Notes under the pieces: generated by a model | What the model was told of the DNA's origin: nothing | Seen by the model: the letters and a program-made list of their open reading frames with translations, nothing else | The model's database searches: none | Part shown: piece after piece, positions 21,663 through 63,330 of the stretch | Position numbering within the stretch: the stretch's first letter is position 1 | Layout: every line of letters starts with the position of its first letter | Source of the DNA: Acetatifactor sp. | GTDB taxonomy: Bacteria > Bacillota > Clostridia > Lachnospirales > Lachnospiraceae | Assembly: GCA_024695935.1 (NCBI GenBank) | Contig: JAILHH010000014.1 | Location: forward strand, 1 to 64,000 | Length of the DNA stretch: 64,000 nucleotides | Direction of reading: 5' to 3' | Translations under genes and position numbers: made by a program

Positions 21663-21691
21663 ATATTAAGTTGTAAAATCTTTAAAGCTAT

Positions 21692-45238: not shown

Positions 45239-46039
45239 TTACGGTTGCTTGCCGATGTAGGCAAGTATCCCACCGTCCACATATAAAATGTGTCCGTTTA
45301 CAAAATCCGATGCCTCTGAAGCCAGAAAAACAGCAGGGCCTTTCAGATCATTGGGCGTACCCCAGCGCTCTGCCGGAGTCTTTGCTATGATAAAACTGTC
45401 AAACGGATGTCTTGATCCGTCGGGCTGAGTTTCTCTGAGCGGTGCCGTCTGAGGCGTTGCAATGTACCCGGGACCGATACCGTTACACTGAATATTATAT
45501 TTGCCATATTCAGATGCGATATTTTTGGTAAGCATCTTTAATCCGCCCTTTGCAGCCGCGTATGCAGAAACTGTTTCTCTTCCCAGTTCGCTCATCATAG
45601 AGCATATGTTTATTATCTTTCCATGCCCCTTTTCGATCATATCGGGAAGCACGGCCTTTGCCATAATAAATGGAGCTACCAGGTCGATATCCACCACTTC
45701 CCTGAAATCGTTTGCTCCCATCTCTGTCATGGGAATCCTCTTTATGATACCGGCATTGTTAACCAGAATATCAACTGTTCCCAAATCTTTTCTGATACCG
45801 GAAATCATCTCATTTACCTGACTATCATCAGTCACGTCACAGATAAAACCTTTTGCATCAATACCTCTTTCGGCATAATCCGAAAGTGCTTTTTCAAGAT
45901 GCTCACTGCTCCTGCAGTTAAAAGCGATCTTTGCCCCGGCTTCAGACAATGCGCATCCTATGGCAAATCCAATGCCATATGCGCCCCCCGTCACCAAAGC
46001 AACTTTCCCCTCCAGTGAAAAAAGCCTGTTTGCTTCCAT
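45239..46039 (-). CDS. dhuD: SDR oxidoreductase, probable DhuD/KduD
   Basis: The protein is a classical short-chain dehydrogenase with the cofactor loop TGGAYGIGFAIG, NNAG, and the YAAAK catalytic pair. With its partners it would reduce 2,5-diketo-3-deoxygluconate to 2-keto-3-deoxygluconate; gluconate 5-dehydrogenase is the alternative. The start at 46039 gives the standard N-terminus MEANRLFSLEGKVALVTGG and has AAGGAAGG about 9 bases upstream; an ATG at 46090 would add 17 residues. The three genes form one uronate operon. Confidence 0.85.
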   Translation of the reverse strand: MEANRLFSLEGKVALVTGGAYGIGFAIGCALSEAGAKIAFNCRSSEHLEKALSDYAERGIDAKGFICDVTDDSQVNEMISGIRKDLGTVDILVNNAGIIKRIPMTEMGANDFREVVDIDLVAPFIMAKAVLPDMIEKGHGKIINICSMMSELGRETVSAYAAAKGGLKMLTKNIASEYGKYNIQCNGIGPGYIATPQTAPLRETQPDGSRHPFDSFIIAKTPAERWGTPNDLKGPAVFLASEASDFVNGHILYVDGGILAYIGKQP

Positions 46040-46192
46040 AAACCATAACCTTCCTTCTTTTTTTTCGTGATGAAAACTTTTTATTTTCACACAAAGGTAA
46101 TTATATCATCCTGTTTCAGAAGCGTATATGCACTTGAAAAAATAAAAAATTTTTATTTTTTTCGTCAGGTAATGAACGGTCTCTTTTGATAT

Positions 46193-46222
46193 CAAAACGC
46201 CTCACAGTAAAAACTGTGAGGC
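46193..46222 (-). terminator. intrinsic terminator after the chemotaxis receptor gene
   Basis: On the minus strand GCCTCACAG pairs perfectly with CTGTGAGGC around a 6-base loop and is followed by GTTTTG. It lies about 18 bases after the stop of the receptor gene. Confidence 0.8.
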
Positions 46223-46239
46223 ATTTATTAATATCATTT

Positions 46240-47718
46240 TTATTTACTGAACAATTCCAGCTTCGAATGGATCTCCGCCATGATATTTGAGAAGGATCTG
46301 ACCATGTCCACATTCTCTTCGGAGCTTCTGGCAACCTCCTGAGTACTTGCGGAAATCTGCTGACTGCTGGCTGACAATGTGCTCACAGAGTCGACTATGA
46401 TATGATTTGCATCTATCATCTGCTTCATCAAATTTCCCATTTCGGCTGTCTCTTTAAGCAGAACGGATACATTGTCCTTTATCTCGGTAAATTGATCTTT
46501 TGCCTTGTCTGCAAATTCTCTCTGTGCCATTGAGATGTTTACACTCTCATCAACCTTTCTAACCACATCCGTTGCATCATCGGCAAGCTGATCAAGGATA
46601 CTTCCGATCTGTTCTGTAGCGGATTTTGTCTGCTCTGCCAGCTGTCTGATCTCGTCCGCAACAACCGCAAAGCCTCTGCCGGCTTCGCCCGCTCTGGCCG
46701 CCTCTATTGATGCATTCAGTGCAAGGAGATTTGTCTGTGCCGAAATACTTAGGATCATATTTGTGATCTCTCGAACGGATTCAGAGCGCTTATGAAGATT
46801 TTCTGCCGAAATCTTCATCTGTTCACCCGATTCAATTGCCTGATCCACCTTGCCGGTCAGGCCTTCCATGGACTTGCTTCCTTCATCAACGCTTAATCTG
46901 GCATTGTTGGTCTTTTCCAAAATAGCTTCAGTCTTATCACTGGAGTCCTCTATCAGTCTGGCGATGGATTCGGTTTGCTGTGTTTCATCCATAATGGCAT
47001 TTGTGTTGTCTGAAACGCCTGCGGTTATTCCCTGCAATACGTCACGCATAAAGGCTGTGGCTTTTTCTATACTGCCCACCAGATCCGTAACTTCATCCAT
47101 TTTATCCTTTACATCCAGGGCAACCGATTGTATCTTGTCGGAGACATCTTTTGCCTCAACGGCATTTTTCTCTGCGCTTTCTATGGAAGTATCAAAGAAA
47201 TCCTTTAACAGCTTGATACCTCTGAAGATTGCCACAGAACACAGGATCGATACAATAATCTCTATCATCATAAGTTCAAGCTGTTCTGTGGGATCCGCAG
47301 CGGTGGCAACCAAAACGGTTCCTCTGAGTATATTGAGGATCAAAAACAGAACAGTCAGGATTCTGGCTGTTACAATATCCAATGTTAACATTATGCAGAT
47401 AAGGATCGGAACGAAATACGGATATGTCGTATTGGACTGGGACATGAACATCATGGATGCATATACGACCAGGAAGCCGTAAGCCACTATTCTCGAATAG
47501 ATAAGTTCACCCCTGGACCTAATGAAGAATATCAGACAGCAGACATACACGATGATGTTTAAAACGATGGGCACAATACTCATAACAGGTGCCAGATCAG
47601 AAGCTGCCATCTGCGATCCACACCCTATCAGTACAAAGACTGCCGTTATGGTGTGAATAATAAATAATAACTTGTGAGAATTTGTCAAAAACAGACGTTT
47701 CAGATTTTGTTCGCTCAT
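46240..47718 (-). CDS. methyl-accepting chemotaxis protein
   Basis: The 492-residue protein has an N-terminal membrane domain with about six helices (17-175) and little extracellular part, so it likely senses within the membrane. A cytosolic helical signalling domain follows with the conserved hairpin tip [19 protein letters not shown] and [18 protein letters not shown]. No HAMP domain is evident. It would control CheA; no other chemotaxis gene is in the window. It stands alone between two terminators. Confidence 0.92.
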
Positions 47719-47940
47719 ATTTCCCCTCCATGAAAAATAAAAGTTACAAACTATCGTTTACGTTAAAGTTAAATAAACAAATTTCATAGGCCAAATCATC
47801 ATAAATCCGTGCCCTATTCAATTGGTTACATTATACTAAAAAATCATAAATATGTATATAGTATTTACGAAAAAAAAATCATTTTTTTACCAAAAACAAA
47901 CATAATTCTGAATATTTATCATCGCCTCGTCATATATTAT

Positions 47941-47976
47941 AAAAATGAAACGGACAGCTTTTTCAGCCGTCCGTTT
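47941..47976 (-). terminator. intrinsic terminator after queF
   Basis: On the minus strand AAACGGACGGCT pairs with AGCTGTCCGTTT over 12 bp (one wobble) with a short loop and is followed by CATTTTTAT. It closes the queC-transporter-queF operon about 12 bases after the queF stop. Confidence 0.88.
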
Positions 47977-47987
47977 GTGATTTGGTT

Positions 47988-48476
47988 TTATCTGTTGTCG
48001 ACTCTCTCCAGGTTCATGTCATGGTGAGTAAGTCTGTTCCATGCCACATCTTCCCACTTGGTTCCGGGCTTTCCGTAGTTACAATAAGGGTCGATGGAAA
48101 TTCCGCCTCTTGGCAGGAATTTTCCGGTAACCTCGATATATTTGGGATCCATAAGTTTTATCAGATCCTTCATTATCTTGTTCACACAATCCTCATGGAA
48201 ATCACCATGGTTTCTGTACGAGAACAGATACAGCTTCAAAGATTTGCTCTCAACCATTATATCCCCGGGAACATAGGAAATATAAATCGTCGCATAATCG
48301 GGTTGACCCGTTATGGGACAAAGACTTGTAAATTCGGGACAGTTGAATTTAACATAATAGTCATTTTCAGGATGCTTGTTTTTAAATGTTTCAAGCACTG
48401 AAGGGTCATAATCTGTAGGATATTTTGTATGCTCACTGCCAAGTTTTGTAAGTCCTTCGTTTTCTCTTTCGCTCAT
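47988..48476 (-). CDS. queF: NADPH-dependent 7-cyano-7-deazaguanine reductase
   Basis: QueF reduces preQ0 to preQ1 in queuosine synthesis. At 162 residues it is the short, single-domain type. The catalytic cysteine lies in [13 protein letters not shown], and the [13 protein letters not shown]-type block (here [12 protein letters not shown]) completes the active site. It ends the queuosine precursor operon 3 bases after the transporter gene. Confidence 0.95.
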
Positions 48477-48479
48477 TTT

Positions 48480-49163
48480 TTATTCCTCCCTGGGTTTGAT
48501 AAGTCTTGCAAGGTAGATAAAAGGTGTATCTGCAATGGCAACCACTGCCTTAAATAAATATGTTGTGATCAGAATGCTGAAAAATACTCCTGTGGGATAA
48601 GTTCCCCAGAATGCCAGAAATGTAAATATCACAGTGTCAACAGCCTGGCTTAAAAGCGTACTTCCGTTATTTCTAAGCCAAAGTTTTTTGCTGTCATCAC
48701 CTGTCTTCTTCCAAATAAAATGATACAGGAACACATCAATATTCTGACTGCAGATAAATCCCAGGAGACTTGCTATGGTGATCCTGGGCACAAGACCGAA
48801 TACCACGCTTAAGCTCTCGCTTATATAATCATTCGCATTTGGTGTAAAGAGCAGGATCATCTGAGAGCCCAGCATCCACAGAAGCATTACCGTAAAGCTG
48901 TACATAACGGCTTTCTTAGCATCCTTTTTCCCGTATTTTTCGGAAAGGATATCGGTTACGAGGAAGGTTGATGCATAAAGCACATTTCCCCCTGTAGTGG
49001 AAAGACCAAACAGGTCAATGCATTTGCATACGGCAATATTTCCCAGAAGTGTTCCAAAGATGGCAAAAGCGTATAAACCGTTCTTTCCGTAAAGCTTGTA
49101 CAACAAAAGTACACTTCCAAGATATAACAATACAGTGATGATAAAGATCAATTCGTTAGACAT
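48480..49163 (-). CDS. VUT-family queuosine precursor transporter
   Basis: The 227-residue hydrophobic protein has six or seven helices and family features including FLVTDILSEKYGKKDAKKA, which is shared with YhhQ. Such proteins import preQ0, preQ1 or queuine. It lies between queC and queF and is under the same riboswitch, so the cell can both make and take up the precursor. Confidence 0.9.
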   Translation of the reverse strand: MSNELIFIITVLLYLGSVLLLYKLYGKNGLYAFAIFGTLLGNIAVCKCIDLFGLSTTGGNVLYASTFLVTDILSEKYGKKDAKKAVMYSFTVMLLWMLGSQMILLFTPNANDYISESLSVVFGLVPRITIASLLGFICSQNIDVFLYHFIWKKTGDDSKKLWLRNNGSTLLSQAVDTVIFTFLAFWGTYPTGVFFSILITTYLFKAVVAIADTPFIYLARLIKPREE

Positions 49164-49171
49164 ATTCTACC

Positions 49172-49858
49172 TCAATTTTCATATTCTATGGGATCTTTTA
49201 TCCCATTTTGTTTAAAAGCTTCTATTCTGTCTCTGCAGGTTCCGCAGACTCCGCATGCCTTTTCATGGCCCTCATAACAGCTCCATGTAAGTTCAAAGGG
49301 GACTCCGACTCTAAGTCCCTCAGCCACCACTTCACTCTTTGGCTTGTCGATGAAAGGTGCCACGATCCTGCACTCATTTCCGCTTCCGATATATATCGCA
49401 TCGGATATGGCTTTATTGAAAGCAATGCTTGTATCCGGGTAAGCATTTCCCGCCGCATCATCCGCATGGGCTCCGTAATATATCTCGCTGCAGCCGTGAC
49501 TTAAGGCAATGGATGCAGCAGACGATAAAAACAGTCCGTTTCTGTAGGGCACATAGGTATTTACCGGCGCACCGCCTGTCTTTTTTAATTGTTCGGAGTA
49601 TTCCTCATGAGGGATCTCCTCCTTTGCTCCCTCCAGGAGCGTACAGTCACTGTCCTTGAATATAGCTCCCAGGTCCAGCTCTATACGCTTTACGCCATAG
49701 TATTTTGCAACCTTTTTGGATGCATCCATTTCTTTTTTATGTTTCTGTCCATAATATACGGACAGGGCAAGTACTTCCTCCGGACCGTATTTTTTAACGG
49801 CCATGCCGAGGCACACGGAACTGTCAAGCCCGCCACTGAATAATACCAATGCTTTCAT
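49172..49858 (-). CDS. queC: 7-cyano-7-deazaguanine synthase
   Basis: QueC converts 7-carboxy-7-deazaguanine to preQ0 with ATP and ammonia. The 228-residue protein has the PP-loop LFSGGLDSSVCLG near the N-terminus and the zinc-binding cysteines in CYEGHEKACGVCGTC. It is the first gene of the operon. The other preQ0 genes (queD, queE, folE) are not in the window. The start ATG has AAGGAAAAAC upstream. Confidence 0.95.
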   Translation of the reverse strand: MKALVLFSGGLDSSVCLGMAVKKYGPEEVLALSVYYGQKHKKEMDASKKVAKYYGVKRIELDLGAIFKDSDCTLLEGAKEEIPHEEYSEQLKKTGGAPVNTYVPYRNGLFLSSAASIALSHGCSEIYYGAHADDAAGNAYPDTSIAFNKAISDAIYIGSGNECRIVAPFIDKPKSEVVAEGLRVGVPFELTWSCYEGHEKACGVCGTCRDRIEAFKQNGIKDPIEYEN

Positions 49859-49925
49859 TTTGTTTTTCCTTTTTTTATGCCAATCACTCTCATGCGAGCA
49901 TTATGCTATGAATTTGTCTCATTAT

Positions 49926-49977
49926 CGCCAAATGCCTGCCCGAGCGAGCTCGGCAGTAGCTTGGCTCATTGTTATAA
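49926..49977. repeat. 52-bp repeat, copy A1
   Basis: This 52-bp stretch matches 50040-50091 at 51 of 52 positions (one A/C change). It holds nested inverted repeats: GCCAA / TTGGC outside and CTGCCCGAGC / GCTCGGCAG inside. It lies in the queC leader. The start of the larger composite element follows it. Confidence 0.9.
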
Positions 49978-50039
49978 TCGAGCAGGTTAATACCTGCTCG
50001 CCGACACCTCAAGGCTACCGCCTTTCGGTGTCCTACATT

Positions 50040-50091
50040 CGCCAAATGCCTGCCCGAGCGAGCTCGGCAGTCGCTTGGCTCATTGTTATAA
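50040..50091. repeat. 52-bp repeat, copy A2
   Basis: This is the second direct copy of 49926-49977, 114 bp further on, and forms the third hairpin of composite element A. Confidence 0.9.
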
Positions 50092-50122
50092 CAAAAAATA
50101 GCTTTGCAAAACGCAAAGCTAT
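50092..50122 (-). terminator. terminator of the preQ1 riboswitch leader
   Basis: On the minus strand ATAGCTTTGC pairs perfectly with GCAAAGCTAT around GTTTT and is followed by TTTTTTG. It lies about 28 bases after the preQ1-I aptamer. A preceding segment (CTATGATTAC) could pair with GTGGTTATAG and so break the terminator, giving an antiterminator. Binding of preQ1 would then favour termination ahead of queC. Confidence 0.8.
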
Positions 50123-50149
50123 AACCACACTCAAAATATGTAATCATAG

Positions 50150-50192
50150 TCCTGGTTTTGTTTAACGACAGGATGGTACAAACGAACTGTCG
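50150..50192 (-). promoter_or_regulatory. preQ1-I riboswitch
   Basis: On the minus strand CGACA pairs with TGTCG (P1). The loop GTTCGTTTGTACCA matches the family loop (GTTC...TAC.A), with UCC ready to pair with GGA at the end of the A-rich tail TTAAACAAAACCAGGA (P2 pseudoknot). The tail is very like that of the Thermoanaerobacter tengcongensis aptamer. A promoter stands just upstream and a terminator just downstream, ahead of queC, the VUT transporter and queF. Confidence 0.82.
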
Positions 50193-50211
50193 GTGCTTTT
50201 GCACAGGTGAA

Positions 50212-50240
50212 AATGTATCACTAATCTTAAGATATGTCAA
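50212..50240 (-). promoter_or_regulatory. promoter of the queuosine precursor operon
   Basis: On the minus strand TTGACA (50240-50235) and TACATT (50217-50212) are separated by 17 bases. Transcription would start near 50205, just before the riboswitch. Confidence 0.7.
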
Positions 50241-50271
50241 TATTTTTTTCTATGTGCCTTTACTGTCAGAT

Positions 50272-50934
50272 TCAGGCTCTCTCATCACGTAAGTACTCAT
50301 TAACTTCGTACAGGTCTGTTAACACTGTCTCTGCGAGTTCTTTCATCTCTTCTGTTTCCGGCAACAGATCAGGTACCATAATGGGTCTTAAGTTTCCTCT
50401 GTAGGCTGATCTGATCCCATTATATGAATCTTCGATGGCATAGGCCTTTGCGGGCTCCACTCCTATCTCTTCACAGGCTTTTAAGAAAATATCCGGAGCA
50501 GGTTTACTCTTTTCCACCATATCGCCTGTGACAACAGTATCAAAAAACGAAAGTATTCCGGCATCACGCAATTGATCTATCACAGTTTTACGTTTTGTCG
50601 AAGAAGCCAATGCGATCTTTTTATTGTTGTCTGACAAAAATGTAAGCAGCTCAACAACACCTTTTTTCATCGGGAGCCTCCCTCCGTCATATCTTTCATG
50701 ATACATCACGGATGCTTCCTTCGCATATCTGTCATAGGGAAAATCATCACCGTAAGCTTCCAGCATGATCTCCCGGGTTTTGGCCGCATTTGTGCCTGTG
50801 CAGGCCAGGTACGGCCCCTCTATGTCAGGTATATTATATTTTTTTGACAGTTCTATCCAGCAGTCCATTACAGCTTTCTCAGAGTCAAATATGACCCCGT
50901 CCATATCAAATACAACCGCTTCAAATGACTTCAT
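50272..50934 (-). CDS. HAD-superfamily hydrolase, beta-phosphoglucomutase-like
   Basis: The 220-residue protein has HAD motif I VVFDMDGVIFDSE with the nucleophilic aspartate, ALASSTKR (motif II) and a VEDSYNGIRSA motif IV. The cap domain type and motifs fit the beta-phosphoglucomutase or small sugar-phosphate phosphatase subgroup; the substrate is not predictable. It lies downstream of a TetR gene on the same strand, with 35 bases between. Confidence 0.88.
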   Translation of the reverse strand: MKSFEAVVFDMDGVIFDSEKAVMDCWIELSKKYNIPDIEGPYLACTGTNAAKTREIMLEAYGDDFPYDRYAKEASVMYHERYDGGRLPMKKGVVELLTFLSDNNKKIALASSTKRKTVIDQLRDAGILSFFDTVVTGDMVEKSKPAPDIFLKACEEIGVEPAKAYAIEDSYNGIRSAYRGNLRPIMVPDLLPETEEMKELAETVLTDLYEVNEYLRDERA

Positions 50935-50969
50935 AAACTTATCCCTTTACAGATTCTTTACTGTTTTTA

Positions 50970-51497
50970 TTACTTTACGATATTTACCAAAGTGGCAGCG
51001 ATGTCCTCCACTCTTTCCTGCTTTCCGCCCTCTTCCCATTTCAGAAAACTGTTTAAAAGCGCTCCGGCATAGGCATAGAGTTTGTAAACGGAAATACTGT
51101 GATCAGTGTTCATATGTTTTAGCATAAACTCATTTACTCCCTCCAGCATGACGGAGTGAAGATTGTTCTTTGAAAGAGTGAGGAAAAAATCCGAATATCT
51201 GTCAAAGAAATTAAATGAAAAAACTATATGATCATAGTCAAAATATGAACTTCCGCTAAGTTCCTCTCCGCTTGAGACATACTCGGAGACAATGATGTTT
51301 AAATAATCCGTCAGCACGGAATAGGCGGATGAGTAATATTTATAAAAAGAAGTTCTGGACACTCCGGCTTTCTTTACGATGTCCGACACTTTTATCCTGT
51401 TAAAGTCATTTTTTTTGAGTAACAGTATCACCGCTTCCCCGACGCATCTGCGGGTAAACTCCGATTTTTGATTTGTAAGTATATTTCTAAGCTGCAT
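50970..51497 (-). CDS. TetR-family transcriptional regulator
   Basis: The 175-residue protein has an N-terminal helix-turn-helix (IKVSDIVKKAGVSRTSFYKYY) and an all-helical ligand/dimer domain. It is divergent from a degV gene, with 225 bases between that contain two palindromes (51571-51585 and 51600-51610). It probably controls itself, and perhaps the degV gene and the HAD gene behind it. The ligand is unknown. Confidence 0.87.
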   Translation of the reverse strand: MQLRNILTNQKSEFTRRCVGEAVILLLKKNDFNRIKVSDIVKKAGVSRTSFYKYYSSAYSVLTDYLNIIVSEYVSSGEELSGSSYFDYDHIVFSFNFFDRYSDFFLTLSKNNLHSVMLEGVNEFMLKHMNTDHSISVYKLYAYAGALLNSFLKWEEGGKQERVEDIAATLVNIVK

Positions 51498-51570
51498 TTC
51501 TTTTCTCTCGTTCCCGGTTTTATCATCTGAGAATATGGATCAAACATTTAGATGAACAAAAACCGCTATT

Positions 51571-51610
51571 TTGTAAATTGTACAACAGGAAATGTTTTTT
51601 TACAATGTAA
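51571..51610. promoter_or_regulatory. paired palindromes, candidate TetR operator
   Basis: TTGTAAATTGTACAA (51571-51585) is a TTGTA/TACAA inverted repeat, and TTACAATGTAA (51600-51610) is a perfect 5-1-5 palindrome with the related half-site TGTAA. Both lie between the divergent TetR and degV genes. Confidence 0.45.
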
Positions 51611-51682
51611 TATGATTTTCAAGAAAATGCCTGACGGGCAAAAACAGCTTTATATGCATCAAAAAACGAAAGGAAAGTTCCG

Positions 51683-51721
51683 ATGACAAAAAAGCTTTGT
51701 TACCGGACGAAAAGAAATTAA
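51683..51721 (+). CDS. possible 12-residue leader peptide before degV
   Basis: An ATG at 51683, 7 to 8 bases after AAAGGAAAG, opens a 12-codon frame (MTKKLCYRTKRN) that stops one base before the GTG of degV. The degV GTG itself has only a weak binding site, so translation may be coupled through this leader. It is short and could be chance. Confidence 0.35.
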   Translation: MTKKLCYRTKRN

Positions 51722-51722
51722 C

Positions 51723-52550
51723 GTGATCAAATTCGTAACCGATTCTTCCTGCGACATATATGAATTAAATGGCACACCAATAAATGTTGCCCCATTAAAG
51801 ATTTCAACCGCTGAACGGGAATTTACAGATAATGAAAGCCTGAATGTGCACGAGATGCTGGATTACCTTGCTTCCTACCGCGACAGATCTTACACGGCCT
51901 GCCCCTCAACGGACAGCTGGCTTCAGGCATTTGAAGGCGGCAGCGAAATATATGTTGTAACTATGACAAGCAATCTCTCAGGTACTTACAACAGCGCCTG
52001 TATCGCAAAGGACTTATATCTCGAAAAACATCCCGAGGCAAAGATCTGTATAACAGACACTCTCACCACAGGTCCGGAGATGCATCTGGTGATGGAAAAG
52101 ATCCTTGAATACAAAGAAAAAGGCAGAACTTTTGAAGAGATTGAGACAGGAATAAAAGATTATTTAAAAACCACAAGGCTTTTTTTCAGTTTCAAATCCC
52201 TGCATAACTTTGCCCAAAACGGCAGGGTCAGCAAGGTCGTTGCTTCCCTTGTGGGTAAACTTAATATCAGTATCATCGGCACGGCAACCGCTGACGGAAA
52301 TATCGATCCTCAGTTTAAGATAAGAGGCGAAAAATGCGTCCTTAACAAACTGACAACAGAGATGTACTCTGCGGGTTTTAAGGGCGGAAAACTCAGGATA
52401 TGCCACATAGAAAATGAAGATCTCGCCATGAAGCTGGGAGATCTTGTCAAAGAAAAATACCCCGATACCGACCTATCCGTTTACCCTGCAAGAGGACTTT
52501 GCAGTTACTACGGTGAGCGCGGTGGGATCATAATCGGAATCGAATGTTAA
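51723..52550 (+). CDS. DegV-family fatty-acid-binding protein
   Basis: DegV/FakB proteins bind a fatty acid and present it to the kinase FakA for phosphorylation. The 275-residue protein has the family start VTDSSCDI, the TSNLSGTYNSA block and GRVSKV. The start is a GTG with a weak ribosome binding site, one base after the stop of a possible leader peptide. Its last 4 bases overlap the end of the convergent ABC ATPase gene. Confidence 0.9.
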   Translation: MIKFVTDSSCDIYELNGTPINVAPLKISTAEREFTDNESLNVHEMLDYLASYRDRSYTACPSTDSWLQAFEGGSEIYVVTMTSNLSGTYNSACIAKDLYLEKHPEAKICITDTLTTGPEMHLVMEKILEYKEKGRTFEEIETGIKDYLKTTRLFFSFKSLHNFAQNGRVSKVVASLVGKLNISIIGTATADGNIDPQFKIRGEKCVLNKLTTEMYSAGFKGGKLRICHIENEDLAMKLGDLVKEKYPDTDLSVYPARGLCSYYGERGGIIIGIEC

Positions 52551-53344
52551 ACAGCTTCCCTGCCGGGTAAATATGTCACAGACAAAGCACCTGTTATGGG
52601 ATTATTGTATATTTCACTGTCCACATCATACAGTGTGCGAATGGTCTCTCTGGTCAAAAGTTTTTGAGGAGTACCCTCTTTAACCACCTTTCCTGCCTTT
52701 AAAGCATATATATAATCACAGTATCTGGCGCTGAGTTCAACATCATGCAACACACTCAAAGTGGAAATACCGAGACTTTTTACCAGTTCAAGCACTTCAA
52801 ACTGGAATTTAACATCCAGATGATTTGTAGGCTCATCCAATATCAACAGTTTAGGCTTTTGAGCGATGGCCCTTGCCAAGATCACTCGCTGTTTTTCTCC
52901 TCCCGAAAGAGACAGGAAACTACGATCCCTCAAACCTTTGAGTTCAGTTTTTTCAAGAGCATCATCCAGAATGCAATAGTCTTCATCATTAAACGCTTCC
53001 ATCATTTTCTTGTGGGGCGATCTACCCATAAGCACCATATCCTCCACTGAAAAATCAAATGACATCTCGTTAAACTGCCCTACAACTGCTATATTTTTTG
53101 CGACTTCCTTTGGAGTCATGCATGCCATGGACTTTCCATTCAGCAGCACTTTGCCTTTTTCGATGGGATTGACTCTGTATATTGCCTTTAACAGCGTGGA
53201 CTTTCCGCATCCGTTGGGTCCTATTATCCCTACGCTCTGTCCCTCCTCTACTTTCAGACTTACTCCCTTAACTATATTTGTTCTGCCTAAAGTGACCTTC
53301 AGCTCTTTTACTTCCAAATTCATTTTATGCTCCTCCGAATCCAT
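52547..53344 (-). CDS. iron/corrinoid-type ABC transporter ATPase
   Basis: The 265-residue protein is a FecE/BtuD-group ABC ATPase with Walker A GPNGCGKST, signature LSLSGGEKQR, Walker B LLILDEP and the H-loop in VLHDVEL. It energises the permease encoded directly upstream (20-base overlap). The substrate may be a ferric siderophore, heme or corrinoid. No cobalamin riboswitch is near. Confidence 0.9.
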   Translation of the reverse strand: MDSEEHKMNLEVKELKVTLGRTNIVKGVSLKVEEGQSVGIIGPNGCGKSTLLKAIYRVNPIEKGKVLLNGKSMACMTPKEVAKNIAVVGQFNEMSFDFSVEDMVLMGRSPHKKMMEAFNDEDYCILDDALEKTELKGLRDRSFLSLSGGEKQRVILARAIAQKPKLLILDEPTNHLDVKFQFEVLELVKSLGISTLSVLHDVELSARYCDYIYALKAGKVVKEGTPQKLLTRETIRTLYDVDSEIYNNPITGALSVTYLPGREAV

Positions 53345-54413
53345 AATCTTTTTTAAGTAACATATACAGAAATACCGGAGCTCCTATAGACGCCGTTATG
53401 ATTCCCACAGGAAGCTCCGAGCCGGTTACAAGCATCCTCGAAAGCAGATCCGTAACTGTCATGAATATTCCGCCGATCAATACTGTGTATGGCGTGAGTA
53501 TCCTGTGATTTGCTCCAAAGATCGCCCTTGTGATATGAGGGATCACCAGCCCCACAAAGCCTATCATTCCGCAGTTTGCCACCAAAATACCGGTGATCAG
53601 ACTGGCTATTATAAGATATATCCTTCTCCAAAAAGTAAGATTTACTCCCAGAGTGGTAGCGGCCTCTTCCCCCATTAACATCAGATTCAGATTACTGCTT
53701 TGAGCGAGGAAGAAAATAACAGTTATCAAAGTCACCGAAGCAACCATGGGCACTTTATTCCATGTGGCCGATGCTGTGCTTCCCATGATCCAGAAAGTAA
53801 CACTTTGCAATGCCTGAGAATTATCGGCAAAATAAATTATCATATTGGAGAAAGCTGAGAACATGGAATTAATCACCGTTCCGGCCAGCACAAGTTTTGC
53901 GCCGGTGGTCTTTCCTCCTATATTTGCAAAAAACAATACGAGAAATGACGCTGCCAAAGCACCTGTAAAAGCGCATCCGGCCACACCGACATTTCCGATA
54001 ACAGGAATCGAACCAACTCCTATCATAAGTGCAAATGTGGCACCCAAAGTAGCTCCCGATGAGATTCCCAATATATACGGATCCGCAAGAGGGTTTTCCA
54101 CAGATGCCTGCATCACAATTCCGCAGAGGGATAACCCCATGCCAACCATCAGTGAGGTAAGGGTTCTGGGGAAACGTATCATCCAGACGATATTGAAATA
54201 TGATGTGGGAATATCTTTAAACCCCGGAAGTTCAACGTTGAACAGCTTCTTTAAAATGATCATCACCGTCTGATCCAAAGGGATATTTACCTGTCCCATC
54301 GAAACCGCAATAAGAACAGCACAAAGGGCCAGAATAAGTAATACAGGGATAAAAGCCGGGCTTCCATCCCTTTTATTTTTTCTGAAATTTTTCATTAAAA
54401 TTTTCATTGACAC
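53325..54413 (-). CDS. FecCD-family ABC transporter permease
   Basis: The 362-residue protein has about ten helices and the FecCD-family motifs GMGLSLCGIVMQA, YILGISSGATLGA and IGFVGLVIPHITRAIFG. It is the first gene of a two-gene operon with its ATPase, divergent from the binding-protein gene. The -10 TATAAT (54465-54460) lies right beside the palindromic operator. Confidence 0.9.
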   Translation of the reverse strand: MSMKILMKNFRKNKRDGSPAFIPVLLILALCAVLIAVSMGQVNIPLDQTVMIILKKLFNVELPGFKDIPTSYFNIVWMIRFPRTLTSLMVGMGLSLCGIVMQASVENPLADPYILGISSGATLGATFALMIGVGSIPVIGNVGVAGCAFTGALAASFLVLFFANIGGKTTGAKLVLAGTVINSMFSAFSNMIIYFADNSQALQSVTFWIMGSTASATWNKVPMVASVTLITVIFFLAQSSNLNLMLMGEEAATTLGVNLTFWRRIYLIIASLITGILVANCGMIGFVGLVIPHITRAIFGANHRILTPYTVLIGGIFMTVTDLLSRMLVTGSELPVGIITASIGAPVFLYMLLKKDYGFGGA

Positions 54414-54441
54414 CTCAAAACAAAAATGATAACATTTGCTC

Positions 54442-54457
54442 GTTAGTCACGACTAAC
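54442..54457. promoter_or_regulatory. palindromic operator in the divergent ABC transporter promoter region
   Basis: GTTAGTCACGACTAAC is a perfect 7-2-7 inverted repeat, with another half-site GACTAAC at 54470-54476. It lies just after the -10 of the permease promoter and upstream of the binding-protein gene, so one repressor could silence both. It is nearly the same as the site at 1369-1384. Confidence 0.65.
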
Positions 54458-54506
54458 AGATTATAGCATGACTAACCAGCCAAAAGAAAGGAAAACTTTT
54501 TACAAA

Positions 54507-55550
54507 ATGAAGAGCAAAATTATTAAATCATTTGTTGGAATTATACTGACAACAGCTATTTTTACCGGATGCCAAAGTGCATCAACAGAAACTGTGGCCG
54601 AAGACGCCGCCACAGAAAATATTACTGAGTCGGAAAACAACGACTCCTATTATCCTGTTACGGCAGAAACATATTCAGTTTCAAGCGACGGAGCGACATG
54701 GACTCCCGTTTCCACCACTTATGAAGGCGGATATGAAAGGATCGTTGCCAACAATCAGGGTACAGCAACTCTCCTCATCAGACTCGGACTTTCCGACAAA
54801 ATTGTGGGAGTAGCTGCAGTATTTGGCCCCGCCCCCGAAGACGTCGCTGATGAGTTTCAAGCTCTGCCTGTTATTGCTGAAGGTTATGCATCCAAGGAAG
54901 CCTTGCTTGGTGCTGAGCCGGACTTTGCTGTAGGAAGAGGTGACCTCTTCGTTGACGGTGATTACGGGATCGGAACAGTTGACGAACTGGCAGGCATGGG
55001 AATCGCTTCTTATATCACTCACGTAGGTGAAAATAATGCAAACTTTGAATCATTCCTTGCAGATATAGATAACCTCGGAAAGATCTTTAATGTTGAGGAC
55101 AAGGCAAATGAATTAAAGAATTCTTATATTGAAATGACAAACGGATTAAAGAATGACACAAGAGTGGCCGGAAAATCAATGAAAATGGCTGAGGTATCCT
55201 GGATTGAGGACGGAATGCCCGTGTTTGGCAGTGCCAAAGCAGAAACCTTACAGAATGAGGCTTTCGCCATGATCGGTCTCGACAACATCAACGGATATTG
55301 TGAAGGTGATCAGGTAAGCATTGAAACTGTGATAGCAGAGAATCCTGAAGTAATAGTACTTTTTGATTATGAAGGCGGTCCGAATATGGACGAAATGATT
55401 CAGTCACTTTATGACAATGAGGCAATTTCCGAAATAAGCGCTATCAGAAACAAAAAAGTATTCGCACTTGACTTTAATGCCATCTACGGCGGAAGCGGTG
55501 ACCTATACGCATCAATGCAGGAACTGGCTGACCTCGTATACGGCGAGTAG
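54507..55550 (+). CDS. ABC transporter substrate-binding lipoprotein
   Basis: The protein, about 347 residues, has a lipoprotein signal with lipobox IFTGC (Cys22) and a FepB/BtuF-like binding fold (RIVANNQGTATLLIRLGLSD and EVIVLFDYEGGPN). The ATG at 54507 is preferred because it gives a proper signal peptide; the ATG at 54468 would place 13 polar residues before it and overlaps the operator half-site. It partners with the divergent permease and ATPase. Confidence 0.85.
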   Translation: MKSKIIKSFVGIILTTAIFTGCQSASTETVAEDAATENITESENNDSYYPVTAETYSVSSDGATWTPVSTTYEGGYERIVANNQGTATLLIRLGLSDKIVGVAAVFGPAPEDVADEFQALPVIAEGYASKEALLGAEPDFAVGRGDLFVDGDYGIGTVDELAGMGIASYITHVGENNANFESFLADIDNLGKIFNVEDKANELKNSYIEMTNGLKNDTRVAGKSMKMAEVSWIEDGMPVFGSAKAETLQNEAFAMIGLDNINGYCEGDQVSIETVIAENPEVIVLFDYEGGPNMDEMIQSLYDNEAISEISAIRNKKVFALDFNAIYGGSGDLYASMQELADLVYGE

Positions 55551-55575
55551 ATCCGGTAATAAACTTCCTTTGAAT

Positions 55576-55622
55576 AAAGGGTATCCTGTTGCGGTAAATC
55601 TGCACAGGATACCCTTTTTTTT
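55576..55622 (+). terminator. intrinsic terminator after the binding-protein gene
   Basis: AAAGGGTATCCTGT pairs perfectly with ACAGGATACCCTTT and is followed by T6. The stem is 14 bp. It may serve both converging genes. Confidence 0.9.
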
Positions 55623-56040
55623 AAACTCTTTTCGCGTCCACAATATCAACATCCGGATACAGGCTTCTCAGCTCATCCAGGCTCTCATCAACTCCGGTCA
55701 CGGAGGATGTTGCAAACAAATGAACCTTTTTGCCCTTAAGAACCGCATTGTCGAAAAATGTGTTGATTATCCTGGGAGTCGTATACCACCAGATAGGGTA
55801 TCCAACCCAAAGTTCATCCACATCGGACAGATCCGGCATCACATCGATCTCGGGTCTTGAATTCGAATCCTTGTATTCCACCACACTTCTGCTGGTGTCA
55901 TTCTGCCAGTTCACATCCGCCTCTGTATACGGAACCTTTGGGTGAAGTTCAAATATAGCCGCTCCGTTTGCCGCAGCTATATCCACAGCCCTTTTTCTTG
56001 TCACACCGCTGTGCGAATAATAAACTACCATTTTACTCAT
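55621..56040 (-). CDS. flavodoxin
   Basis: The 139-residue protein has the flavodoxin FMN phosphate loop VVYYSHSGVTRKRA and the GYPIWWYTTPRIINTF block. It is cytosolic and would carry electrons or reduce quinones. It lies 23 bases downstream of the ArAE-like membrane protein gene and may share its transcript. Confidence 0.87.
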   Translation of the reverse strand: MSKMVVYYSHSGVTRKRAVDIAAANGAAIFELHPKVPYTEADVNWQNDTSRSVVEYKDSNSRPEIDVMPDLSDVDELWVGYPIWWYTTPRIINTFFDNAVLKGKKVHLFATSSVTGVDESLDELRSLYPDVDIVDAKRV

Positions 56041-56063
56041 TCTGTCAATGTCCTCCTGCCCGA

Positions 56064-57050
56064 TTATGTATTAAAAGTTCTTTTTTCCGGCTCCTGGCAG
56101 TGAATTAACACATAATCCTTTTTTATATCCAGAAACTCTTTCATCTTTTCCATTATCACAAAAAGCCTTGCCCTGTCTTCAAACTCAAGTCTGTCTGTGG
56201 GAAGGGGAGTCTCCTTCATGACGCTGTAGAGGTCCTCGTAATCTTCCATAAGGCCTTTTACTGTATTCTCTCTTGAATATTCCTCCGACACCTTTTCAAA
56301 ATACTCGGAGAGGATCTTTGCCGTGGACGGGACGGATTTTATCTCCTTCAGATTCTTGTACATTTCAAAGAGGATGTAGCGCTGTCTTCTTCGCATTGCA
56401 ATATATTCCATATCCTCCACATCGCCTTTTGAAAACTGATTCATGTAATTTTCCCTGGCAATGTCGGAAGCCACACGAATGCTTTCATCCATCTTTTCAA
56501 AGCATGTTCCGTCATAGTCTGCCAGATTTACATCCATTATCCTCTGACTCATCCTGTGGAGAGCATATTTCATCTTTTCATCCGTCTCTTCCTTTAAGCG
56601 CTCCATATATCCGGTATTTTTGTGAAGCGTCAGGTTGACCAAAACACCCATGCCCACACCGATCACAAAGAGCAATATCTCGTTTTTTAAAGCCGCATAT
56701 CCCATGTTTCCAAAGGTGAGAAAATGTGATATAAGCACCGAATCCATGGCCATGGCACTGTGCCAGTCAAATATCTTGCACAAAAAGATGAATATTACCA
56801 TATATATGCAAAATCCCACCGTGCTAAAGCCAAAGATGAAAAAGCTGCAAAAGGCGATAAAAAGAGCTGCCAAAAAAGCATAAAGCCTGTTAAGTCCTGT
56901 ATTAATAGTCTCCTTTTTAGTATAGGCTACGGACAATATGGCCACAATACCGGCTGATATGGCAAAATCCAGCCTCAGCATATTGGCAATGAATATTGCC
57001 ACCACCGCCGCCACCGAAACCTTGGCTGCAAACATCAGATTCTTCGTCAT
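56064..57050 (-). CDS. ArAE/FUSC-like membrane protein
   Basis: The 328-residue protein has four or five N-terminal helices (to about 150) and a cytosolic helical C-terminal domain (about 150-328), the layout of the ArAE_1 (DUF939) aromatic acid exporter-like family, with the segment KVSVAAVVAIFIANMLRLDF at the N-terminus. The transport role is known for distant relatives only. It precedes a flavodoxin gene. Confidence 0.75.
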   Translation of the reverse strand: MTKNLMFAAKVSVAAVVAIFIANMLRLDFAISAGIVAILSVAYTKKETINTGLNRLYAFLAALFIAFCSFFIFGFSTVGFCIYMVIFIFLCKIFDWHSAMAMDSVLISHFLTFGNMGYAALKNEILLFVIGVGMGVLVNLTLHKNTGYMERLKEETDEKMKYALHRMSQRIMDVNLADYDGTCFEKMDESIRVASDIARENYMNQFSKGDVEDMEYIAMRRRQRYILFEMYKNLKEIKSVPSTAKILSEYFEKVSEEYSRENTVKGLMEDYEDLYSVMKETPLPTDRLEFEDRARLFVIMEKMKEFLDIKKDYVLIHCQEPEKRTFNT

Positions 57051-57089
57051 AAAATATCCCGCTTATAAAAATTTAGTGTTAAATCCCTT

Positions 57090-59033
57090 TTATTCAAATG
57101 CAGGGTGTCTGCCCAATCTGTTCCTGTCCTTTATGAATTCCACAAAGTTAACCTCCGGAATAGGCTTGCTGAAATAAAATCCCTGGATATAGTCACATCC
57201 CATCTCCTGCAATGTCTGCTGCATGTGATCGGTCTCGGCGCCTTCAGCCACGATCCCGAATTCATCCTCCGCAAACATACTTATAAGCCTTGGAAGCACG
57301 ATATCATTTCCGTCAAAATAGGACCAGACAACAGATTTATCTATCTTTACGATATCGAAGGGAAGCTTGAGTACATTTACGAGATTCGAGAAACCTGTTC
57401 CGTAATCATCCAGCGAGAATCCCGATCCCTCTCCAATAAGAGAATCCATCAAAGCGTTAAGCTCTCTGATGTCCAGTTTTGCTGTCTCTGTTATCTCAAA
57501 GTTAAGATAACTCATGTCAATTCCAAATTCGTTTGCGACTTCGATTATTTCTGATGCAAGATTTCTGTTCATGCACTGGATTGGGGAGAGATTTATCTCG
57601 ATATATTTAAGGCCCATGGCATCCAGATCATGTTCACTGATAAATCTGCACACTTTTCTGAGGACCTGGTTTCCGAGTTTTAATATTGTTCCGTCCTCCT
57701 CGGCAAGTGAAATAAAAGCCGCTGGCGGAATCACCCCAAGCTCCGGATCCTCTATTCTCACCAGTGCCTCCGCAGAACTGAAGGCCCCTATCATGGAATC
57801 ATAAATGGGCTGATAATATACTATCAGAGCATCCTCATCCACCGCCCTGTGGAGGGCATCCTTCACCTTTATGGAATAATGAAGTTCCGCAAGGAACCTG
57901 TCATCTATCTCGCGAAGGTCATTGCTCTCATCCTTTTCGATCTGTTTAAGGGAAAACTTTAAAATATCATATACTTCATGCCCGTCCTTTGCGTCACATT
58001 CATCGGACATATATATAAATTTCGGCTTTGGATTAACCTTTTGACCGTCAAAACAAAATCCCTTATCTAAATATTCTCTTATCTGATAGGTGATCTGATC
58101 CTTGTCAGCCTTTGAATCTAATACCAGCAAAAACTGTCCGCTCTGCAGATAAAACGGCAGGATGTTATCCACATGCTTTCTGAGATATATCCCGAATCTG
58201 TTGAGAAATCTGTCCATTAACCCCGAGCCGTAAATAGCTCTTAACCTGCCGTAATTTTGGAAAGTGATGCCCACATATCTGTATCTGCGCTTTCCGAAAA
58301 CCAGTTTTTCGCCAAGGTATTTAAACATGGCATCACGGTTATATATCCTCGTCTTCTGATCTTTGTCAAACTCGGGATTCTGCATGGACAAAAAGCAGAT
58401 CGCCATTGAAAAACTGCATCCGATATTGATAAGGAGCAGATGCGGAAATACAAAAAACTGGAGCATTGCCGCTGTTGTGGATGCAAAGACAAAGAAGATA
58501 AGACTTACCTTTTCCTTTAAGGGTATGATCTTTCTGGAGTGAAAAATCAGTGCCAGCGAGACTCCTGAATAGAAAATTATGACCGAGGGATGGATCTCAT
58601 AGAAAAATCTGCCCCTGGTAAATCCCGTCTCATCAACCTTATAAAGAAAACCTGTAAGAGGATTTGTAACGCAGATCACCTCGGCAAACCAAAATGGCAC
58701 ACTGATCCACCACTGCTTTCCTACTAACACTTTTAACTTGTCACCGGTCAGATACCGGCAATACTGCATAAAGAGGTAATAAATTGCGAAAACGGACAGA
58801 AAATAGACCATATTGGCCAGTTCCTGATGCCAATAGCCGTATTTTTCCGGATAAGAAGAAAATACCGAAGCGATTATATCCGCAATGATACACAGAAACT
58901 GTATCATCAAAAGATCAGAGAAAATTATATTCTTTTTGATAGGAAGACTCCTCTGGAGATTGTAAAAAACAAAGAACAATCCTATCAATATAAGTGCCGT
59001 AATTTCATATTGCAAGTTCCAGACCATAAGCAA
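57090..59033 (-). CDS. membrane GGDEF-EAL protein, probable c-di-GMP phosphodiesterase
   Basis: The 647-residue protein has about seven N-terminal helices (1 to about 220), a degenerate GGDEF domain in which the signature loop reads SGQFL, and a C-terminal EAL domain (about 390-640). The EAL domain keeps its motif (AEALVRI), the DDYGTGFSN block and EGAET, so phosphodiesterase activity is likely and cyclase activity unlikely. With the HD-GYP protein at 40591-41961 it makes two degradation enzymes in the window and no intact cyclase. Confidence 0.9.
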   Translation of the reverse strand: MLMVWNLQYEITALILIGLFFVFYNLQRSLPIKKNIIFSDLLMIQFLCIIADIIASVFSSYPEKYGYWHQELANMVYFLSVFAIYYLFMQYCRYLTGDKLKVLVGKQWWISVPFWFAEVICVTNPLTGFLYKVDETGFTRGRFFYEIHPSVIIFYSGVSLALIFHSRKIIPLKEKVSLIFFVFASTTAAMLQFFVFPHLLLINIGCSFSMAICFLSMQNPEFDKDQKTRIYNRDAMFKYLGEKLVFGKRRYRYVGITFQNYGRLRAIYGSGLMDRFLNRFGIYLRKHVDNILPFYLQSGQFLLVLDSKADKDQITYQIREYLDKGFCFDGQKVNPKPKFIYMSDECDAKDGHEVYDILKFSLKQIEKDESNDLREIDDRFLAELHYSIKVKDALHRAVDEDALIVYYQPIYDSMIGAFSSAEALVRIEDPELGVIPPAAFISLAEEDGTILKLGNQVLRKVCRFISEHDLDAMGLKYIEINLSPIQCMNRNLASEIIEVANEFGIDMSYLNFEITETAKLDIRELNALMDSLIGEGSGFSLDDYGTGFSNLVNVLKLPFDIVKIDKSVVWSYFDGNDIVLPRLISMFAEDEFGIVAEGAETDHMQQTLQEMGCDYIQGFYFSKPIPEVNFVEFIKDRNRLGRHPAFE

Positions 59034-59141
59034 TCCCCCCGGTGTCAGACGGTACAGTTATTACAAATAATGAACTACAAAACCATATAAACCTCTCAAA
59101 AACATTTAATACATTATAACATAAAAGCGGCAAAACAGCAC

Positions 59142-59786
59142 TTAAAAAGTGTGGTGTCCGTCTTTCCAGTCATTCATCTTGGCCAGAATATATATATATG
59201 CCCCTCTTGCGCAGACAATGTAGAGTATGGCGCCCGTGCAATAGTACACATAACCTATTCCTATGGAAAAGATCAGACCGCTGATAATATTTGAAATTAT
59301 CCTGTACTTTTTTTTCCTTTTCCTGAGTATATCGTCAGTGAGTCTGACAATGGCCAGTATTAAAGCATTTATATATATTCCCCAATAAGGATTTCCGCCA
59401 TACGTATAGATCACAAGCATCACAAATGTCTGGAGCATCATCCTGTCGGGCAATTCCAGCAGTGCGTACTCAACCACCAGATCCGGCATTTTTGTGTCTG
59501 AGAAAAAATAATCGTAATCCCTGCTCTTCCACTTGATAAAAACAGTAATGCAAAGTGTGGAAAATGTTGTAGCCCATTCAGACCATCCTATAGGTCGCAA
59601 CATTCTGGCATCCAGATTAAACATGTAAAACATAATGATCGCTATGGGAATAAAGGAACTTATGACGGGAGAAAGAATCGTCAGTATTTTCAGATTCTTT
59701 TCTGCCAGAAATGCCCTTATTCGGATATGACACATATACCAGGCCATGGCAAACATGAAACCTATCAAACCCGTCAAGAAATACAT
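59142..59786 (-). CDS. hypothetical membrane protein, unrecognised
   Basis: I do not recognise this 214-residue protein. It has about six hydrophobic helices joined by short loops, a basic RKRKKKYR cluster after the fourth, and a KSRDYDYFFSDTKMPDLVVEY loop in the middle. It has no signal peptide and no known catalytic motif. It stands alone, with 108 bases to the phosphodiesterase gene and 104 to the flavodoxin gene. Confidence 0.7.
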   Translation of the reverse strand: MYFLTGLIGFMFAMAWYMCHIRIRAFLAEKNLKILTILSPVISSFIPIAIIMFYMFNLDARMLRPIGWSEWATTFSTLCITVFIKWKSRDYDYFFSDTKMPDLVVEYALLELPDRMMLQTFVMLVIYTYGGNPYWGIYINALILAIVRLTDDILRKRKKKYRIISNIISGLIFSIGIGYVYYCTGAILYIVCARGAYIYILAKMNDWKDGHHTF

Positions 59787-59890
59787 ATCGTAAACGCCCC
59801 TGTAAGCAAAAGATTTATAATTTCATTATGACATAATATGCATTCCTTTAACAATGGAATTATGTAGGAAATAAGTCGCAGTTAAATGAC

Positions 59891-60412
59891 TTATGACAGA
59901 ATTTCATCCTTTGCCCAATACTGGATAACATTTTTGGCATTTTCCACGAAGGAGCCCTGTAACGTCAGACCCTGAACGATCTGAGAGTCCGGAGCATATT
60001 TTCTGATGACATTCATGCTGCTTCCGAAGCCTCCGCCACCGCTGGTGTTAAATGCGACCAGTTTTTTACCGGCCAGATCAGCTCTGTCAAGAAAAGTTAC
60101 CACCGGCATGGGAAGTGTATTCCACCAGTTTGGAAATGCCAGTACGACCGTATCATAATCAGCCATATTATCCGGCAGATCCTCTATATCCGGCAGTTCA
60201 CCCTTCTCGATCTCTTCCTTTGCCTCTTCTATCATGGCATAATGATCTGTTGAATATGTGCGTTTCTGCTTTATTCTGTAGAGATCTCCGCCTGTTGCCT
60301 CACTTATATATTCTGCGGCTATCTCAGTATAACCTTTTTCGACTTTGATGATGGTTCCACCCGAATAAGTCTCGCCGGGCAAAGTAAAATATGCGATGAG
60401 TATCTTTGACAT
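59891..60412 (-). CDS. flavodoxin-family protein
   Basis: The 173-residue protein is a long-chain flavodoxin type with LIAYFTLPGETYSGG as FMN loop, VVLAFPNWWNTLPMPV and FNTSGGGGFGSS. It would bind FMN and act as a reductase or electron carrier. It starts after TAGTTACCTCC on the opposite strand, that is GGAGGTAACTA, an excellent ribosome binding site. Structured repeat copy B lies upstream. Confidence 0.87.
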   Translation of the reverse strand: MSKILIAYFTLPGETYSGGTIIKVEKGYTEIAAEYISEATGGDLYRIKQKRTYSTDHYAMIEEAKEEIEKGELPDIEDLPDNMADYDTVVLAFPNWWNTLPMPVVTFLDRADLAGKKLVAFNTSGGGGFGSSMNVIRKYAPDSQIVQGLTLQGSFVENAKNVIQYWAKDEILS

Positions 60413-60510
60413 CTTAACTTAGTTACCTCCTGGCTTTTTTTATATAATACATTATATTCTGTAATTTTAAAAAATCAAAGGTTAATTTTCTGTAAATTCA
60501 AGGAAAGAGA

Positions 60511-60680
60511 TGGCTCGCGCTCCATAAACTCGAGCAGGCTCGATTTCAACTCTGTTTCACACCTCAAGGCAAAGCCTTTCGGTGTTCTACAGTCGCCTAA
60601 GTCCACCTCGCAAGCGAGCTTGCGGGTGGGACTTAGGCTCGTTGTTACACAAAACGCTGTACAAAAGTACAGCGTTTTTA
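60511..60680. repeat. composite structured repeat element, copy B
   Basis: On the plus strand this copy has GGCTC...ATAA, CGAGCAGG, the shared hairpin ACACCTCAAGGC...GCCTTTCGGTGT, then GCCTAAGTCC...GGACTTAGGCTCGTTGTTA around the centre AGCGAGCT, and last a perfect hairpin (ACGCTGTAC / GTACAGCGT). Order and shape equal copy A at 49958-50122, but the third and last stems have other sequences that keep pairing. Confidence 0.75.
60651..60680. terminator. bidirectional terminator-like hairpin
   Basis: AAAACGCTGTAC pairs with GTACAGCGTTTT around AAAA. T-runs follow on both strands (TTTTTA on plus, TTTTG on minus). It lies 11 bases after the end of the ACT-domain gene and probably ends the paaK-ACT transcript on the minus strand. 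It is also the last hairpin of repeat copy B. Confidence 0.75.
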
Positions 60681-60690
60681 GGATCTGATC

Positions 60691-61125
60691 TTAAATATTC
60701 ATTACATCGTCCTGGGTCAGGATCTTTAACCCCTTGGACACAAGCTTTGTCTCCGCAGCCTGAGTATCGGCAACCCTGAATATCATGCAGGCACTCTTTG
60801 TGGACTTATGTCCGGAAACCGCATACATATACTCAATATTTACCTCAGCCGAAGCAAAGATATTTATGAGTTTATCAAGTCCGCCGGGTTCATCGGGTAT
60901 CTCAACCACCAGTACAGAGTTTAATTTTGATACAAAATCCGCTTCTTTTAATACATTCATCGCGGATATGGGATCATCCACCACGATCCTGGCAATTCCA
61001 AAATCCTTTGTCTCAACCATCGAAATGGCTCTCATATCTATTTCATGCTCGGCCAGCACACCGGTCATTTTTTTCAAAGTGCCGGGCTTATTTTCAAGGA
61101 AAACCGAAATCTGTTTTACTGACAT
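60691..61125 (-). CDS. tandem ACT-domain protein
   Basis: The protein, about 144 residues, has two ACT-type domains (about 1-70 and 71-144), beginning KQISVFLENKPGTL and VVEIPDEPGGLDKLI. Such proteins often accompany PaaK and probably sense an amino acid. The ATG at 61125 has GAGAGGG about 8 bases upstream; a TTG two codons earlier is less likely. It lies 31 bases after paaK in the same operon. Confidence 0.88.
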   Translation of the reverse strand: MSVKQISVFLENKPGTLKKMTGVLAEHEIDMRAISMVETKDFGIARIVVDDPISAMNVLKEADFVSKLNSVLVVEIPDEPGGLDKLINIFASAEVNIEYMYAVSGHKSTKSACMIFRVADTQAAETKLVSKGLKILTQDDVMNI

Positions 61126-61156
61126 ACACAATCCCTCTCTTTCATTTTTTTACGGA

Positions 61157-62482: not shown

Positions 62483-62540
62483 TAATACTTATGTTCAAAA
62501 TCACTTATTATTATAGAATATTTATGCATGATTAGTAAAC

Positions 62541-62588
62541 GACAAATTAAAACAAAAGCAGCAAAAATTCGCTTTTTGCCGCTTTTGT
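62541..62588 (-). terminator. intrinsic terminator after the ECF S component gene
   Basis: On the minus strand ACAAAAGCGGCAAAAA pairs with TTTTTGCTGCTTTTGT over 16 bp (one wobble) around a 5-base loop, followed by TTTAATTTG. Confidence 0.78.
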
Positions 62589-62619
62589 AAACCGATTAAA
62601 TTAATTAGGATCTGAAAGA

Positions 62620-63180: not shown

Positions 63181-63262
63181 AATACTCCGGCCGTTGCAAC
63201 CTGAAAATCCGGTTTTTTTTCCGAGACCGATCCTCCTTATATAAAAAATTCTTTGCAAATCG

Positions 63263-63284
63263 TTAGAGAAATAATATACTCTAA
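63263..63284. promoter_or_regulatory. inverted repeat between the ECF gene and MocR gene
   Basis: TTAGAG and CTCTAA form a 6-10-6 inverted repeat around an AT-rich spacer that also contains a -10-like TAATATAC. It is placed to act as operator for the divergent pair. The evidence is a single site. Confidence 0.4.
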
Positions 63285-63330
63285 TTGGTAATATCAAAAT
63301 GACCAGTTAAGGAGAATTTAATATAACCAG

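Follow-up and report, generated by a model that had tools for sequence, protein, structure and literature searches.

A structured mobile repeat of about 130 bases adjoining intrinsic terminators in Lachnospiraceae

The structured element present twice in the window (the whole 64,000-nucleotide stretch of Acetatifactor sp. DNA that was analysed) is a family of mobile DNA repeats of about 130 bases in gut and rumen Lachnospiraceae. It is well supported that the element is real, mobile, structured and terminator-targeted. The best explanation, which we hold to be reasonably probable, is that the element is mobile but non-autonomous, about 130 bp long with units composed of H1, P0, H2 and H3, and that it resides at pre-existing intrinsic terminators. 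No description of the element was found in literature searches, and no host-useful function is shown for it. Bacteria commonly carry small structured repeats whose means of spread is for the most part not understood; for this family the fold, orientation and target are all defined, and, together with empty sites and the named public carrier Lachnospiraceae bacterium C10, this makes the question of the mover directly testable. The family also shows that a small, non-intron element can use terminators as its insertion sites.

Organization and distribution of the copies

Two copies with named motifs had been reported in the initial annotation, and both were found in place on reading of the window sequence; all features below are assigned to the minus strand. 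Copy 1 consists of one full unit at 49977-50090 with H1, H2, H3 and the terminator-side end (E 3.9e-17 with R1, the model built from the first copies; minus strand, E 2.6e-11 with R2, the model that includes P0 and was built on 14 copies). It is preceded in tandem by a second, hairpin-only unit at 49921-49976 that retains the H3 hairpin and the terminator-side end only (H3 pattern match at 49921-49972; weak R2 match at 49897-49976, E 0.0025). Within the full unit, the H1 hairpin CGAGCAGG..CCTGCTCG spans 49979-50000 and is conserved in alignments A1 and A2; the H2 hairpin, identified from sequence and fold, spans 50003-50032 and has a TC/TC internal loop (GA/GA on the minus strand); and the H3 hairpin GCC..GGC, identified from sequence and pattern, spans 50041-50079 with apical AGCGAGCT. 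The closing stem P0 is lost in copy 1 and is 4 bp long in copy 2, which occupies 60529-60650 (R1 E 9e-31; R2, minus strand, E 1.9e-20) and has an H1 shortened by internal deletion. Its P0 arms, CAAC at 60547-60550 and GTTG at 60641-60644, are read from the sequence and covary in relatives, and they enclose H2 at 60552-60592 (sequence and fold) and H3 at 60595-60638 (sequence and pattern).

On the plus strand the element reads H1 (ATCGAGTAGG..CCTACTCGAT), the P0 5' arm, H2 with its TC/TC internal loop, H3 (GCC..CRAG..GGC) and the P0 3' arm, beyond which lie ATA and then CAAAAA with a hairpin. A second H2 type (CATAGATGAAAACGC..) is present in the source genome. Tandem units occur, and the upstream one is usually reduced to H3, as at 49921-49976 and likewise at L010 and L011.

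The initial annotation also took the last hairpin (50098-50122 and 60653-60676) to be a varying stem of the element, an assignment that is rejected, as the hairpin at each site is the unrelated terminator of a host gene. In copy 1, 50091-50122 is target: the gene at 50272-50934 has its minus-strand intrinsic terminator here, with hairpin and T-run, and the same hairpin is present without the element in G008, a genome of the same genus. In copy 2, the minus-strand gene at 60691-61131 has its terminator at 60651-60676, as judged from the sequence and the list of open reading frames. Both copies do end at a terminator-like hairpin, as had been proposed, and that hairpin is the neighbouring gene's own.

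The element had been described as dispersed, and a genome-wide search bore this out: BLASTN with copy 1 as the query found about 30 places in the 2.64-Mb source genome, and relatives are present in other Lachnospiraceae genera. The exact pattern of the H2 stem occurs in 52 stretches of public genomes, all of which bear Lachnospiraceae or Butyrivibrio in their titles, and a strict search with R1 matched at least 15 of 397 Lachnospiraceae genomes. Lachnospiraceae bacterium C10 carries some 40 copies, and the majority of its full-length ones match one copy at 90-99% identity; 8 matches were obtained in its relative G003, and the complete one-contig genome G239 has about 17 copies. Carriage by phage was rejected, the H1 hairpin being present in only 3 viral contigs.

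Structural constraint and the folded strand

Relative to dinucleotide shuffles, copy 1 folds with z = -9.35 and copy 2 with z = -7.32, and none of 200 shuffles was as good. The fraction of paired cells across 14 diverse copies is 85.4%, compared with 73.3% in shuffles and 32-44% in slid structures, the comparison with slid versions being biased in the structure's favour as it was drawn from one of the 14 scored copies. Cells changed on both sides number 70, against 29.2 +/- 3.9 in shuffles; the counts for H2 are probably low because MAFFT misaligns some H2 arms. Extending the covariation test from two copies to these 14 gave a score of 0.302, compared with 0.143 +/- 0.012 for shuffles and far lower values for slid structures. 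The strongest compensatory changes lie in H3 and, in relatives, in the closing stem P0, whose arms have a mean duplex energy of -4.18 within a copy and -2.54 +/- 0.25 between copies. R2 recovered variants outside its own alignment at E = 1.8e-15 to 8.8e-7 and finds the copies of the source genome on the terminator strand. The covariation of the 14 copies, the pairing of P0 and the recovery of unseen variants support the earlier suggestion that the structure is under selection and the element more than a plain repeat. Compensatory change had been claimed for the third and last hairpins; it stands for the third, where both sides of H3 change, and falls for the last, which is the host terminator.

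The folded strand is likely the minus strand, which is the strand of the terminator, because an excess of G-U pairs and the GA/GA and CUUG loops are found there. In the 14 copies, 44 cells are G-U on the minus strand, with 17 A-C cells there that are G-U on the plus strand only; a single column pair contributes 10 of the 44, making this moderate evidence. On the minus strand the element adopts a three-way junction that has GA in its linkers and contains both a GA/GA and a CUUG loop, and minus-strand folding of copies from many genera returns the same junction in most of them, even when hardly any stem letters are shared (e.g. L186). The minimum-energy fold deviates from this junction in a few copies (e.g. 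L183, L202 and L203).

Insertion at intrinsic terminators

The U-tract of a terminator directly abuts the element in about 73 of 78 copies, a figure reached after false pattern hits and inner tandem units were removed by hand, compared with 24 of 244 (10%) control positions. An earlier count was discarded, its pattern having been too loose, and was replaced using a stricter one; with the strict H3 pattern, terminator-like sequence lies directly next to the element in 24 cases in the source genome, 37 of the C10 type and 12 from other genera. Of the 17 copies listed for G239, 16 have CAAAA, or a sequence close to it, at their end beside a hairpin. The terminator hairpin differs at every insertion site, and the element has a single orientation, its H3/P0 end being joined to the end of the U-tract. 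Among 28 copies in the source genome, the same-strand upstream gene is co-oriented in 23.

Mobility is evident from empty sites. G008 lacks the element at seven sites of the source genome, including that of copy 1, whose insertion is entirely missing at the orthologous site; occupied and empty pairs within the genus include L015/L098, L018/L104, L009/L106, L023/L112, L027/L114 and L025/L116, and those between C10 and near relatives are L040/L159, L045/L139, L065/L163 and L086/L167. In the cleanest case, L040 reads CATTATAA, element, CAAAAAATCC and L159 reads CATTATAACAAAAAAATCC, which puts the insertion point between TAA and CAAAAA; at most one base is ambiguous, and nothing is duplicated. Neither of the two cleanest comparisons (L040/L159 and L045/L139) has a target duplication, and the terminal inverted repeats with target-site duplication of a classical MITE are absent from their junctions. 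Some far boundaries are uncertain because several junctions lost or changed target bases. Copy 2 was set aside as an empty-site case, since G008 lacks the entire stretch between the genes.

At three G008 sites (L108, L110 and L118), a second, unrelated structured repeat (GCATGTCGCTTGCGACATGC..) sits at the terminator-side position that holds the element in the source genome; a different repeat lies beside the same terminator, and terminators are therefore shared landing sites. A further high-copy repeat was observed at the right flank of L074 and in G002 and G003, with many matches, several of them at contig ends.

Candidate mechanism, alternative explanations and related systems

In the proposed mechanism, the folded terminator strand, in single-stranded form (RNA or ssDNA), would be what a trans-acting enzyme recognises, and the terminator hairpin and T-run on exposed single-stranded DNA would direct insertion. 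Joining or copying may begin at the T-run, which would leave the terminator-side end usually complete and the far end (H1) often cut short. Most incomplete copies retain the terminator-side end, among them 7 of 7 left-truncated units in G239 and four in C10; overall, 16 of the 17 listed G239 copies keep it, and the far end is missing in 7 of these. The exceptions keep the H1 side only: in C10 they are L171 and L172, and G304 has two pieces consisting of H1 alone. This retention suggests, and does not prove, a process starting at the T-run. The mechanism is put forward with less confidence than the relation to Clostridiales-1 RNA discussed below, which is itself held less firmly than the identity of the folded strand.

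Neither a moving enzyme nor an autonomous partner was found: most carriers lack a reverse transcriptase, and G239, like several others, lacks a Y1 transposase. No autonomous copy with a gene between its ends was found at L171 or L172. The absence of an enzyme from incomplete assemblies is weak evidence, and the greatest weight falls on G239 and the source genome (96.6% complete). It is conceivable, but rather doubtful, that these repeats represent a new class of mobile element in bacteria. Their folded single strand would be joined or copied, starting from one fixed end, at the 3' edge of intrinsic terminators, and the enzyme responsible would be neither a Y1 transposase nor any known group II reverse transcriptase.

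Insertion could be RNA-templated, as for a SINE: the terminator T-run would prime a reverse transcriptase, and the template would be a plus-sense transcript with GUUAUA at its end. The fixed T-run end, the far-end truncations and the lack of target duplication would fit such a route, and group IIC introns show that elements using reverse transcriptase can choose terminators (PMC4424553). However, no RVT_1 protein was found in the source genome, G002, G003, G005, G006 or G008, and the better-folded strand is the minus strand, which is of the wrong sense, making this route improbable. A group II reverse transcriptase was rejected as the mover: none was found, and by context the reverse transcriptases of carriers are not of intron types, the single one in C10 adjoining a RAMP-like gene and that of G004 appearing, on our reading, to be retron-type. 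The C10 enzyme (L168), of 645 aa, lies downstream of the RAMP-like gene, which suggests an association with type III CRISPR. Transposition of single-stranded DNA by a Y1 (HUH) transposase, as for repeats derived from IS200/IS605 ends or for REPs, would agree with hairpins in fixed orientation and with the absence of target duplication, and Y1 genes are present in the source genome and C10. In addition, composite repeats with IS605-like end hairpins contain the element in C10 (L039, L063, L072 and L076) and G019 (L205), at the same position in the two genera and with two different variants of the element. Against this, Y1 is absent from the complete G239 despite its copies, as well as from G240, G304, G104, G019, G003, G004 and G006; the element does not flank the Y1 genes L087 or L088; and the far side has no fixed target tetranucleotide. 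Y1 transposition is about as improbable as the RNA-templated route.

The element could instead be a cis-acting functional RNA kept by the host for control of read-through, 3' ends or leaders, with mobility secondary. The structure is strongly constrained across genera; L010, L013 and L017 lie between a terminator that, by sequence reading, resembles that of a T-box and the downstream gene; and, among 28 copies in the source genome, the downstream gene is on the same strand in 20. The downstream gene is opposite in the other 8, however, the neighbouring genes are of many kinds and close relatives have empty sites, so that a host-kept function is unlikely. It is possible, if still doubtful, that the family is a divergent, unrecognised subfamily of Clostridiales-1 moved by an ordinary DNA transposase. 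The intermediates L188, L191 and L192 match RF01699 on the terminator strand, scoring 31.7-37.2 bits in the Rfam scan, below the cut-off of 48; yet R1 and R2 match canonical copies weakly (best full-length E 0.05), and those copies often carry inverted ends and 5-6 bp duplications, neither of which was seen in the window family in the comparisons made.

A terminator-associated mobile repeat, the reading preferred here, can be set beside several known systems. Bacterial group IIC introns insert at a DNA motif of intrinsic terminators (PMC4424553), and the adjacency count and empty sites show that the element shares this choice. Unlike such introns, it is only about 130 bp long, the window has no Rfam match to a group II ribozyme core, and no intron-type reverse transcriptase was seen. 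REP/RAYT and CGTC repeats (PMC3733652) are also short dispersed palindromes, often downstream of genes, and CGTC repeats too are without a known enzyme (PMC3733652); in contrast, no GTAG or CGTC tag system is established for the window family, several carriers, G239 among them, have no Y1 that could be repeat-associated, and the element is a three-way junction rather than one hairpin. Pneumococcal BOX is modular and foldable and SPRITE is terminator-like (PMC3049150), but their sequences are different, and the element adjoins a terminator rather than being one.

Assignment to an ordinary Rfam family was rejected, as scans of the window gave only a cobalamin riboswitch, located elsewhere at 21455-21669 on the minus strand (105.8 bits). 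RF01699 has no match in the source genome at E <= 0.01 and none at E <= 10 within 46000-64000 of the window. Clostridiales-1 RNA (RF01699; Weinberg et al. 2010, PMC2864571) is the closest known family. Canonical copies from other genera (L211-L239) have inverted ends TGATRCCAGGGTCA / TGACCCCAACATCA, and 15 of 25 have an exact 5- or 6-bp A+T-rich target duplication, features seen here that lie outside the Rfam definition; these suggest that the Clostridiales-1 'sRNA' is a miniature transposon. In the RF01699 layout the closing stem surrounds three hairpins, of which the first has a CUUG loop, whereas the window family encloses two, targets terminators, and has no inverted ends or duplication of the canonical type in its clean empty-site comparisons. 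Both families share a closing stem, a first hairpin with a CUUG loop, a hairpin with a GA-type internal loop and many copies per Lachnospiraceae genome, and the window family is best filed, as an unproven assignment, as a distant relative of Clostridiales-1.
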